From contig NZ_AEDD01000001.1 of assembly GCF_000179615.1 (NCBI RefSeq), forward strand, positions 1 to 64,000: a DNA stretch of 64,000 bases, read 5' to 3'. Position numbers and translations under genes: made by a program. Shown here piece by piece: positions 7,722 to 10,943 of the stretch. Position 1 is the first letter of the stretch. Each line of letters opens with the position of its first letter. The notes beneath the pieces are model-generated. The model was not told the origin of the DNA. It saw only the letters and a list, made by a program, of their open reading frames with translations, and did not search any database. Source of the stretch: Paenibacillus curdlanolyticus YK9. GTDB lineage: Bacteria > Bacillota > Bacilli > Paenibacillales > Paenibacillaceae.

Positions 7722-8296
7722 ACAAAAAAACGATCTTCTCGATCATCGAGTGGCTTATCGTTGTTCTCTTGCTTTGGCTATGTTTCGAAACGTACTACAT
7801 TTCGATTGGCAGTTCTTCGCCTGAGCAGGCGCATCAGCTGTCAGAGCGCAGCTTCCACTATGGTCCTTCCAACGTTGTGCGTAAAGTAGAGGTTCCATTT
7901 GATCGCGATCAGGTGATTTTCCTGGGCAAGTACAAAGATTGGTTCTCTGCAGACACTGTACAGCGTAAAAGGGGCAGATGGGTCCCAGGCGGAAGCGTTG
8001 CGGGCGTCCCTATCGATCGCGATAAGGCGATTTCATACAGTTGGCAAGGCGATTCCCCTAAAGATTCACGGATGTCGTATAAATTTTACGGTTACGTATC
8101 CGATGAGCGTATCACTGCTGTCGAACTGCTCATGACAGATAAGAAATCTGGTAAGGCAGCGCCGCTGCGCGAAGAGATCAAGGAAGACCGCATGTTTCTA
8201 TTCCTGTGGGAAGCAAAACAAGGTAGTCTTCAATGGCAAGCTATTCGCGGGCTTGATAAGGATGGGAAGGTCATCGATGAGCAGAAGCTAGGGTAA
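7718..8296 (+). CDS. Membrane-anchored hypothetical protein
   Basis: The 192-residue protein has one N-terminal hydrophobic segment (FSIIEWLIVVLLLWLCFETY). Its soluble exterior contains short beta-type stretches such as RITAVELLMTDKKSG and MFLFLWEAKQG. The start ATG overlaps the upstream stop codon (ATGA). I do not recognise the family. The pair probably works together at the membrane surface. A strong terminator follows immediately, so this is the end of a two-gene operon. Confidence 0.7.
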   Translation: MNKKTIFSIIEWLIVVLLLWLCFETYYISIGSSSPEQAHQLSERSFHYGPSNVVRKVEVPFDRDQVIFLGKYKDWFSADTVQRKRGRWVPGGSVAGVPIDRDKAISYSWQGDSPKDSRMSYKFYGYVSDERITAVELLMTDKKSGKAAPLREEIKEDRMFLFLWEAKQGSLQWQAIRGLDKDGKVIDEQKLG

Positions 8297-8302
8297 ATGT
8301 TG

Positions 8303-8331
8303 AAAGCAGTCGGACGACGACTGCTTTTTTT
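8303..8331 (+). terminator. Intrinsic terminator
   Basis: AAGCAGTCG and CGACTGCTT form a 9-bp perfect stem with a 5-nt loop, followed by a T tract. Confidence 0.9.
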
Positions 8332-8382
8332 GTCATCATTTACATTTGATAGCTAGTTTGCTATTATAAGAATGCCATTGAT

Positions 8383-8432
8383 GCAAACGTTTGCGCAATT
8401 TGATTGAACTAAATTAACAGCGTTGTTATAAC
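8383..8432 (+). promoter_or_regulatory. Promoter with LacI-type operator before the fused synthase
   Basis: GCAAACGTTTGC (8383-8394) is a perfect 12-bp palindrome of the LacI/GalR type, resembling MalR or degenerate cre sites. It lies just upstream of TTGAAC (8404-8409). TATAAC (8427-8432) is 17 bp downstream of that hexamer. Carbon-source control of the fusion gene is inferred. Confidence 0.6.
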
Positions 8433-8480
8433 GGAGGTTTTAAGGACAAAGAACATGATAAATACTAAGGGGGATTATTA

Positions 8481-10943
8481 ATGTCAAGAACAGTAGATCC
8501 GATCGACCATTTATACCAAATGGTGAAGGACGGTATTTCCTATGGGATCGTGCATCAGGTAGCAGAAGATGAGTACCATTCCGGTAGAACGATTCGGATT
8601 CATGACCAGCAATTAATTAATTTTGGGCTTTGCAGCTATTTGGGAATCGAAGCGGATGAGCGGTTGAAGCAAGGCGTAATCGATGCCGTGAATCAGTTCG
8701 GCGTCCAATACTCGGTTTCCCGTGCCTATGTTTCCAATCGCTTGTATACGGAGCTGGAAGATTTGCTGGGGCAAATGTTTGACGGCAAGCATGTTCTCGT
8801 TACGCAAAACACGACGTTAGGCCATCTTGCTGCACTGCCGGTCATTATTGAACCGAATGATGCAGTCCTTGTTGATTTTCAAGTGCATAACAGTGTTCAG
8901 ACGACCTTAAGCCAATTGCGGACGAAGAAGGTTCACATCGAGTACATTCGCAATGATGACATGGCGCAGCTGGAGGAACGGATTGTTGCACTGCAGGAGC
9001 AGCACCGCAGAATCTGGTATCTGTGCGACGGCATCTACAGCATGTACGGTAATGCGGCTTCAATAACAACGTTGGAATCGCTGTTGAACCGGTATGAGCA
9101 ATTCCATCTCTATATTGACGACGCTCACGGCATGAGCTGGAGCGGCAAGCATGGAAGAGGCTTCGTATTGAATCAAATCGAACAGCACGAGCGCATGATT
9201 GTCGTTGTTTCTTTGAGTAAGTCATTTTCGGCCGGAGGGGGCGCGATCGTTTTTCCTAACTTCGACCTCTATCACAAAGTAAAATCATGCGGCGGCCCGA
9301 TGATTTTCTCAATTCCGATTAATCCGCCGACGCTGGGCGCAGCGGTTGCATCAGCGAAGCTGCATCTCTCGGACGAGCTTCCTGCCCTGCAAAATCAATT
9401 GATGGCGAACATCCGATACTTCAATCAGATGGCGGAAGCGTATCAGCTGCCGTTAGTGAACGCGACGGAAAATCCGATCCGATTCATCGGGGTAGGACTG
9501 CCCAAACTGGCATACGCGGTCGTTAGCCGTCTGCAAGAGCTGGGTTTCTATACGAATATTGCAGCGTATCCTGCAGTTCCGATGCGTCGTTCCGGTATTC
9601 GGATCACGGTGACCAATCATCACACCAAGGAAGATATTTTGGCGCTGATCCAAGCAATTGCACAGGTGCTTCCCGTCCTGCTGCGCGAAGGCGGCAGCTC
9701 GATGGACAAGCTGTACAAAACGTTCAAAATGTCGAATCCGGACAGCTTGACCATGCCTGCAAACGAAGAAGGCCGTTCAAGTTCGGCTGCATTAAAGCTT
9801 GAGCATCATACGAGCATTCAAGAAATACAATCAAAAGAATGGAATCAGCTGCTTGGAGGGCGCGGATTCGAATGGGATTTCCTTCACTGTCTGGAGCGGA
9901 CATTCGAGAATCAGCCATTGCCGGAAAACAACTGGGCGTTCCATTACTATATCGTTCGGGATTCCAACGGTGTACCTGTACTGGCTACGTTTTGTACGAA
10001 GGTATTGTTGAAGGATGATATTTTGGAATCGGGTGAAGTATCGAAGGCAGTGGAGCAGCTTAGAGTCGATAATCCGTACTATTTAACCTCCAACTATCTG
10101 GTGATGGGCTCGCTTCTGACGGAGGGCGACCATCTCTATCTGGACCGCCAAGGAAATTGGCAGGAAGCGCTTTCTATGTTTATTGAGGAGCTTCAAGCAG
10201 AGCAAGCGAGATGCCACGCGAATACGATTATGCTTCGTGACTTCTCGATTCATGATGAAGAGCTGGCAGAGTGGATGAAACAGCACGGCTATCTTAGCAG
10301 AGCAATGCCGGAAAGCAATGTCTTGATTTTGCAATGCGAGGATGAACAAGATTATGTGAGCCAGCTATCGAGAAGCGCGCGCGCTTTGATTCGGAAGGAA
10401 GTGCTGGCGTTCGAGCATATGTTTGAGGTGGACATTGTTACATGCGACAGCCCGACGCCATCTGAGGCATTGATCGAAGATCTTCATAACTTGTACCTCA
10501 ACGTACAGCGAAGAAAGCATGATATCAATTTGTTCGCGCTCCCGCAAAATCTGTGGTCCGAGATGCTGAAGCATCCCGGATGGGAATTGCTCGTATTCCG
10601 AATCGCTCCTGAGCATGGCGGAGATCCGGAGGGTCGGCCAGTCGGTTTCATGAGCTGCTATAAAGGGGAAAACCATTACGTTATGTCGATGGTGGGCATC
10701 AATTCGCAATATACGGAGAGCCATCATCTCTATCGTCAAACGTTCTATCAATCGATCAAGAGAGCGATTCAATTAAAGCTGCCGGTTGTCCATCTGGGCA
10801 TTGATGCGAATAAAGAGAAGCAGCGTTTTGGGGCGGCAACGCATGCTACTAATGTCTATTATCAGACCTCGGATCATTACGCTTATCAGGTTCTGGACAA
10901 TATTAAAGCGAACTTGGGCAGTGCGTTGGCAGTTACGAGATAA
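8481..10943 (+). CDS. Fusion of PLP alpha-oxoamine synthase with GNAT-like acyltransferase
   Basis: This 820-residue two-part enzyme has two halves. Residues 1-405 are a fold-type I PLP enzyme of the KBL/BioF/serine palmitoyltransferase group: INFGLCSYLG, the DDAHG element (YIDDAHGMSWSG) and the Schiff-base lysine K247 in SLSKSFSAGGGA. Such enzymes condense an amino acid with an acyl-CoA and release CO2. Residues 430-815 resemble tandem BioF2/FemAB-type GNAT folds (ARALIRKEVLAFEHMF, then FYQSIKRAIQLKLPVVHLGI). The fusion suggests that the amino-ketone is acylated on nitrogen by the same polypeptide. Substrates are unknown. The gene stands alone, with its own promoter, AAGGGGG ribosome site and terminator. 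Confidence 0.8.
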   Translation: MSRTVDPIDHLYQMVKDGISYGIVHQVAEDEYHSGRTIRIHDQQLINFGLCSYLGIEADERLKQGVIDAVNQFGVQYSVSRAYVSNRLYTELEDLLGQMFDGKHVLVTQNTTLGHLAALPVIIEPNDAVLVDFQVHNSVQTTLSQLRTKKVHIEYIRNDDMAQLEERIVALQEQHRRIWYLCDGIYSMYGNAASITTLESLLNRYEQFHLYIDDAHGMSWSGKHGRGFVLNQIEQHERMIVVVSLSKSFSAGGGAIVFPNFDLYHKVKSCGGPMIFSIPINPPTLGAAVASAKLHLSDELPALQNQLMANIRYFNQMAEAYQLPLVNATENPIRFIGVGLPKLAYAVVSRLQELGFYTNIAAYPAVPMRRSGIRITVTNHHTKEDILALIQAIAQVLPVLLREGGSSMDKLYKTFKMSNPDSLTMPANEEGRSSSAALKLEHHTSIQEIQSKEWNQLLGGRGFEWDFLHCLERTFENQPLPENNWAFHYYIVRDSNGVPVLATFCTKVLLKDDILESGEVSKAVEQLRVDNPYYLTSNYLVMGSLLTEGDHLYLDRQGNWQEALSMFIEELQAEQARCHANTIMLRDFSIHDEELAEWMKQHGYLSRAMPESNVLILQCEDEQDYVSQLSRSARALIRKEVLAFEHMFEVDIVTCDSPTPSEALIEDLHNLYLNVQRRKHDINLFALPQNLWSEMLKHPGWELLVFRIAPEHGGDPEGRPVGFMSCYKGENHYVMSMVGINSQYTESHHLYRQTFYQSIKRAIQLKLPVVHLGIDANKEKQRFGAATHATNVYYQTSDHYAYQVLDNIKANLGSALAVTR

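Follow-up and report, generated by a model that had tools for sequence, protein, structure and literature searches.

A gene of Paenibacillus curdlanolyticus YK9 that fuses an alpha-oxoamine synthase to a FemX-like tandem-GNAT domain: a candidate two-headed synthase of N-acylated aminoketones

Alb29 is an alpha-oxoamine synthase (AOS) that uses L-glutamate in albogrisin biosynthesis. DhpH, known from dehydrophos, has a PLP enzyme as its N-terminal part. FemX-like GNAT domains have been studied in several settings, and FemX K305 and DhpH K329 are proposed catalytic residues (PMC12945691). HfsK is also FemX-like, and its donor is unknown (PMC5362036). CqsA and CqsS are a synthase and a kinase that together make up a signal pair (PMC3376566). 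YghO has been identified as a bacterial ceramide synthase homologue (PMC9386255). Here, we describe a gene that joins an AOS half to a tandem-GNAT half, and we compare it with these systems.

The gene lies at positions 8481 to 10943 of the window, by which we mean the whole 64,000-nucleotide stretch of DNA that was analyzed; this stretch opens contig 39 of the sampled 5.45-Mb genome. All features given below are on the forward strand, except for a palindrome that carries no strand. The gene is a single open reading frame (ORF) with an ATG start and no internal stop, and it encodes 820 amino acids. Residues 1 to 422 (8481 to 9746) form an AOS domain of PLP fold type I, as revealed by Pfam, NCBIfam, and PDB searches and by a structural model. 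A flexible linker with low pLDDT (residues 423 to 436; 9747 to 9788) leads to the tandem-GNAT, FemX-like domain (residues 437 to 820; 9789 to 10940), which was delimited by Pfam, a model, and profile alignment. Pfam placed Aminotran_1_2 at residues 82 to 393 (E 4e-20). In the C-terminal half, the only matches above the cutoff were FemAB_like (PF04339; residues 445 to 797, E 3e-8) and Acetyltransf_6 (PF13480; residues 632 to 780, E 3e-6); FemAB (PF02388) was not matched. A chance ORF does not explain the fusion, because there are about 64 full-length homologues and a 91%-identical Paenibacillus copy. Therefore, the ORF, the Pfam matches, and the homologues bear out the initial annotation, which had read the gene as an AOS joined to a C-terminal GNAT region in one polypeptide. 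A PADLOC search gave no match.

The AOS half has kept its catalytic residues. K247, D213, H216, H136, S187, and R374 are invariant in an alignment of 39 of 39 fused homologues. K247 (codon at 9219 to 9221) is the internal-aldimine lysine, as the initial annotation had proposed. D213 (9117 to 9119) is the aspartate of the DDAHG motif that pairs with the PLP pyridine nitrogen, and R374 (9600 to 9602) is the substrate-carboxylate arginine, a role taken from R366 of ThAOS (PMC11906848). The loss of essential PLP residues, which would have spoken against an AOS, was thus not seen. The model of this half matched ThAOS, Alb29, KBL, SPT, and BioF as an AOS fold, with Z scores of 42 to 45. It superposed on Alb29 with an rmsd of 1.9 Å over 384 residues and on ThAOS with a Z of 44. 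By its fold and its PLP residues, the N-terminal half is a member of the AOS superfamily.

Within that superfamily, the protein stands apart from the well-known enzymes. Its scores fell below the curated thresholds for bioF (157 against 426 bits), glycine C-acetyltransferase (140 against 460), SPT (147 against 500), and CqsA (73 against 428). The best-scoring curated model was PRK07505, which has no assigned function, and here too the score fell short of the threshold (273 against 342). In a careful tree, the fused and stand-alone AOS domains form one clade (support 100/99) that is sister to Alb29-like proteins and lies apart from KBL/BioF, SPT, and CqsA; a quick tree was concordant. The CqsA sequences form a clade of their own that excludes the Paenibacillus protein (100/100). 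Trees and curated scores therefore rule out SPT, KBL, BioF, or CqsA as the identity of the AOS half. The initial annotation had placed it in the serine-palmitoyltransferase/KBL class. That assignment does not hold, and phylogeny against SPT, CqsA, BioF, and KBL leaves an intact AOS in a clade separate from all four and nearer to Alb29. One residue bears on the substrate. V79 of ThAOS is a position that alters the amino-acid range (PMC11906848). By a manual count on the alignment to ThAOS and Alb29, our protein has Val79 as in KBL and ThAOS, most relatives have Ser, and Alb29 has Leu. Valine at this position is a weak pointer to a small amino-acid substrate.

We modelled the C-terminal half with AlphaFold2 on a 48-sequence alignment. 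The model (pLDDT 94.2, pTM 0.90) showed two GNAT folds in tandem, so the double GNAT proposed earlier is upheld. In the fold comparison, the first 11 rows were all aminoacyl-tRNA-dependent enzymes (FemX, FemA, Sbb17, and Sba18), with Z scores of 20.2 to 22.7, rmsd of 3.1 to 4.9, and 271 to 306 residues aligned; they led the best of the remaining rows by 2 Z or more. MprF, N-myristoyltransferase (NMT), and tandem GNATs came next at a Z of about 17 to 18; NMT, an acyl-CoA tandem GNAT, matched the whole domain at a Z of about 17. The nearest folds are thus the aminoacyl-tRNA-dependent FemABX enzymes, ahead of those that use acyl-CoA. Profile-profile alignment agreed with the model, giving four FemX-type proteins at a probability of 90% (E 1.5e-6) and PF04339 proteins at 88%. 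The invariant residues of this half are W454, Y489, D494, D513, R528, R586, Y751, and K780. K780 (codon at 10818 to 10820) lies in the motif EKxxFGA and was placed by hhalign profile alignment at the catalytic-lysine region of FemX. The domain is acidic, with a pI of 5.4, and a basic tRNA-binding helix is not evident. Two weak matches of the C-terminal profile to alanyl-tRNA synthetase among PDB chains (E 0.03) were judged to be chance. The fold does not decide the donor of the second step, because HfsK is also FemX-like and has no known donor.

We also compared this half with the bacterial ceramide synthase, using YghO of E. coli REL606, which is encoded beside the SPT gene of that strain. 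With this one YghO sequence, hhalign gave a probability of 0.2% and hmmsearch gave no match. Judged against E. coli YghO by sequence and profile, the C terminus is therefore not a bacterial ceramide synthase. Four alphaproteobacterial genomes have a PF04339 gene no more than about 4 kb from SPT. We dropped this gene as a candidate ceramide synthase because the published YghO/CC_1154 proteins have no Pfam match. A ceramide-like product, as first proposed, is one possible outcome, but it is not favoured because YghO is dissimilar and the nearest folds are those of FemABX.

The region upstream of the gene suggests that it is transcribed on its own. A terminator-like stem-loop of the preceding gene lies at 8302 to 8328; such sites are no commoner than in shuffled sequence, which makes it weak evidence alone. 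It is followed by a sigma-70-like promoter (8339 to 8367; TTTACA-17-TATTAT with an extended TG) and, just 3' of the -10 element, by a perfect LacI-family-type palindrome, GCAAACGTTTGC (8383 to 8394). A ribosome-binding site, AAGGGGG (8467 to 8473), was read from the sequence 7 nt before the ATG. The promoter and the palindrome are both retained in the 91%-identical Paenibacillus orthologue (L044), where much of the flanking intergenic DNA has diverged. Upstream lie a TetR gene and genes for a short-chain dehydrogenase and two small proteins; downstream lie genes for an FAD-binding protein and another TetR-like regulator. No neighbour in the window resembles part of a shared pathway. The earlier picture of a solitary gene with a promoter of its own and a LacI-type palindrome, in no obvious biosynthetic cluster, is thus sustained.

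The palindrome recurs in the genome. We found 10 sites of GCAAACGTTTGC in about 5.4 Mb, where a 12-mer would be expected about 0.3 times; the reversed control had 0. The nine other sites include ones that precede a starch-binding alpha-amylase, that lie close to a LacI-family regulator gene, and that fall at a fatty acyl-AMP ligase/NRPS-like cluster and at a cluster with BtrH_N and AMP-binding genes. Copies were located at L170:1974, L172:2065, L174:2014, and L176:2205 and 3639, besides the one in the window. The sites probably constitute a LacI-type regulon that includes secondary-metabolite genes. Their distribution would fit carbon-source control of secondary metabolism, with LacI as the candidate type of regulator.

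A scan of 84,980 species genomes gave 80 loci, of which about 64 carry the full fusion, at 32 to 43% identity to the P. curdlanolyticus protein. Most are in Bacteroidota, and others are in Myxococcota, Pseudomonadota, Cyanobacteriota, and Acidobacteriota. The gene has a single close relative, in Paenibacillus sp. MMS18-CY102, with 91% identity along its whole length. The gene is rare in its own phylum. The C-terminal half was present in 1 of 398 genomes sampled across Bacillota (the genome that holds the window), and among 197 close relatives two, both Paenibacillus, had the full fusion. In the tree, the named outside proteins nearest to the Paenibacillus pair come from Proteobacteria and Myxococcota, an indication that the gene was acquired horizontally. 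Its GC content showed no telling difference from that of its neighbours. Fused copies were absent from the plasmid relatives and from the viral collection, which held one convincing stand-alone AOS. Because the fusion is kept across at least five phyla, the two halves are likely to act together. The stand-alone AOS members have no separate GNAT gene nearby, so N-acylation is not obligatory for the AOS clade. A literature search, thin on subscription journals, found no paper that describes the fused architecture; automated annotation may already have given the fusion a name, though no function.

Several loci have arrangements of their own. A Pseudomonadales MAG has two tandem fused copies (L045:3824-6316 and 7890-10430) with one 223-aa ORF between them, and the next gene downstream encodes a TonB-dependent receptor. 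In Aureispira, genes for a papain-like protease and a short-chain dehydrogenase stand immediately before the fused gene (L060:5317-10412; L064:3612-7422). A Rhodococcus plasmid stretch (L042:5827-13038) holds two AOS-like genes, a 2OG-Fe dioxygenase, a PGM1-like peptide ligase, a carrier protein, an acyl-CoA dehydrogenase, and an AMP-binding enzyme, and is apparently a small, uncharacterized biosynthetic cluster.

To identify recurrent neighbours, we clustered the ORFs around the homologues. Two kinds emerged, neither of which is in the initial annotation: a protein of the DUF7793 family and a histidine kinase. The 131-aa DUF7793 protein (PF25056) lies within 700 nt of 27 of the 64 fused genes. 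In 11 Bacteroidota genomes, 17 of the 18 DUF7793 copies above the cutoff are at this locus, with coordinates matched by hand. The linkage of DUF7793 to the fused gene is far above chance. This family, which has no function assigned, occurs as one to three tandem copies (L096:10382-10777, L089:5117-6430, and L116:10389-11718).

Of the 64 fused genes, 26 have an ORF for a histidine kinase at a distance of at most 1.6 kb. Such genomes encode 20 to 150 kinase domains each, so about one gene in eight would be near a kinase by chance. When homologues were grouped into independent clusters at 60% identity, 8 of 24 had a kinase (p of about 0.009 at an assumed background of 13%, and 0.09 at 20%). By cluster count alone, the kinase linkage is modest. 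It is strengthened because the adjoining kinases are of recurring kinds. Four proteobacterial and myxococcal loci have hybrid kinases (L048:1063-3273, L050:5836-7686, L076:10434-12491, and L085:9146-11350), 0 to 171 nt from the synthase, whose common N-terminal sensor domain matches nothing in Pfam and has 24 invariant columns in the four sequences. Their synthases group with the Paenibacillus protein at 90/96, below the star threshold of the tree, which is weak support. In Chitinophaga, stand-alone AOS genes adjoin divergently oriented genes for multi-TM kinases, each followed by a response regulator. On a contig catalogued as viral (IMGVR_UViG_3300024336_000001; L180:4551-9902), a stand-alone AOS of 41% identity is followed after a 2-nt gap by a 955-aa multi-TM histidine kinase, forming an operon, and a response regulator lies convergent downstream of the kinase. 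A large second subclade (Kordia, Aureispira, Echinicola, and Cyanobacteriota) has neither kinase nor DUF7793 adjoining. Both are also absent beside the Paenibacillus gene in the window, and a search of the Paenibacillus genome for the proteobacterial sensor domain, run without a positive control, gave no match.

We suggest that the protein is a two-headed synthase that makes an N-(amino)acylated alpha-aminoketone, and that this product is likely a signal in many relatives; we give this reading an even chance. By homology, the AOS half would make an alpha-aminoketone by condensing a small amino acid and an acyl thioester. The FemX-like half would then transfer an acyl or aminoacyl group to the amine of that ketone. 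We infer both reactions, their order on one substrate, the second donor, and the role in signalling; the anatomy, residues, folds, phylogeny, and linkage are observed. Condensation followed by acylation was also the initial proposal, and it remains the natural reading of the AOS residues and fold and of the double GNAT, but the AOS is not of the SPT/KBL type assumed there. In many relatives, the product would likely be a small signal molecule sensed by the neighbouring histidine kinase, in a system that is CqsA/CqsS-like yet independently evolved. By this analogy, the family may produce signal molecules. In Paenibacillus, the gene would have been gained horizontally and would be under a LacI-type operator, with no neighbouring kinase.

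Two donors for the second step have to be weighed. Tentatively, it may be an aminoacyl-tRNA, and the product would then be a peptidyl ketone able to cyclize to a pyrazinone-type compound. The top 11 folds all belong to aminoacyl-tRNA-dependent enzymes, well ahead of the others, and the invariant K780 aligns with the lysine region of FemX, in which K305 is the proposed catalytic residue, as is K329 in DhpH. A C-terminal GNAT that uses Leu-tRNA as part of a larger enzyme has a forerunner in DhpH (PMC12945691), and N-alanyl-aminoacetone is known to cyclize to the autoinducer DPO (PMC12930378). However, PF02388 is unmatched, the donors of PF04339 and PF13480 proteins are mixed or unknown, the donor of the FemX-like HfsK is unknown (PMC5362036), and the domain is acidic and lacks an evident basic tRNA-binding helix. 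A fatty acyl-CoA or acyl-ACP donor, giving an N-acyl-aminoketone or oxo-ceramide-like lipid, is nearly as likely. It would agree with the match of NMT to the whole domain and with the order of an AOS followed by an acyltransferase, since ceramide N-acylation in bacteria may precede reduction (PMC11087976), and a reductase-family (SDR) gene is immediately upstream in Aureispira. However, such SDR neighbours are rare (6 loci), the conserved neighbours include no ACP or acyl-ACP synthetase family, the C-terminal half is not similar to YghO, and the AOS is not an SPT. The probability that remains beyond these two donors falls to another donor or to an unrelated substrate.

It is improbable that the C-terminal half acts elsewhere, for example on an envelope amine, or is an idle scaffold, with the AOS alone making the final metabolite. 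Stand-alone AOS proteins of the same clade do exist without a GNAT partner, some of them paired with kinases, and the FemX-like HfsK can serve a polysaccharide (PMC5362036). However, the C-terminal half has invariant residues and the fusion has lasted in at least five phyla, both of which point to coupled catalysis. To return to the two-headed synthase, its most specific form is an aminoacyl-tRNA-fed, one-polypeptide N-aminoacyl aminoketone synthase whose pyrazinone-type signal would be read by the linked kinase and DUF7793 in relatives. Taken as a whole, that form is quite unlikely. It would add a third, independent way of making alpha-aminoketone-derived signals to CqsA and the non-dedicated DPO route. 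If the broader reading of a two-headed synthase is right, a widespread uncharacterized family in Bacteroidota, Myxococcota, and other phyla makes a two-step small molecule from one protein. Its receptor would probably be the next gene in many cases, so that a signal/receptor pair would be accessible in culturable Flavobacterium strains. The family would also show whether aminoacyl-aminoketone (pyrazinone-type) signals have an enzyme dedicated to them, or else bring to light a ceramide-like lipid pathway that needs neither SPT nor the known ceramide synthase.

The architecture recombines known kinds of enzymes, and the DUF7793 and kinase linkage is new here. The closest solved sequence is Alb29 (PDB 8XHA and 8XHD; E 1e-36), which is 26% identical and has no C-terminal domain; Alb29-like plasmid proteins are the sister group. 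SPT with the bacterial ceramide synthase (YghO/CC_1154) shares the order of AOS condensation and then N-acylation, but SPT is in a separate clade, and YghO has no detectable similarity to the C-terminal half. FemX/FemA and Sbb17 share the tandem-GNAT fold (Z of 20 to 23) and an invariant lysine at the aligned place; unlike them, the C-terminal half is only about 13% identical, does not match PF02388, and is fused to an AOS. The likeness to DhpH covers its C-terminal domain, a FemX-like GNAT of a larger enzyme that takes an amine acceptor and Leu-tRNA (PMC12945691), whereas DhpH makes a phosphonate peptide. DPO (3,5-dimethylpyrazin-2-ol), made by Tdh and adenylate-forming enzymes, would share the N-aminoacyl aminoketone precursor of a signal. 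However, the DPO route has no dedicated synthase (PMC12930378), whereas the fused protein might carry out the two steps by itself, provided that the second donor is aminoacyl. Like CqsA/LqsA with CqsS/LqsS, relatives of the Paenibacillus gene have an AOS beside a histidine kinase. However, CqsA forms a separate clade (100/100) and has no fused GNAT, the kinases differ in their sensor regions, and the Paenibacillus gene itself has no adjacent kinase.
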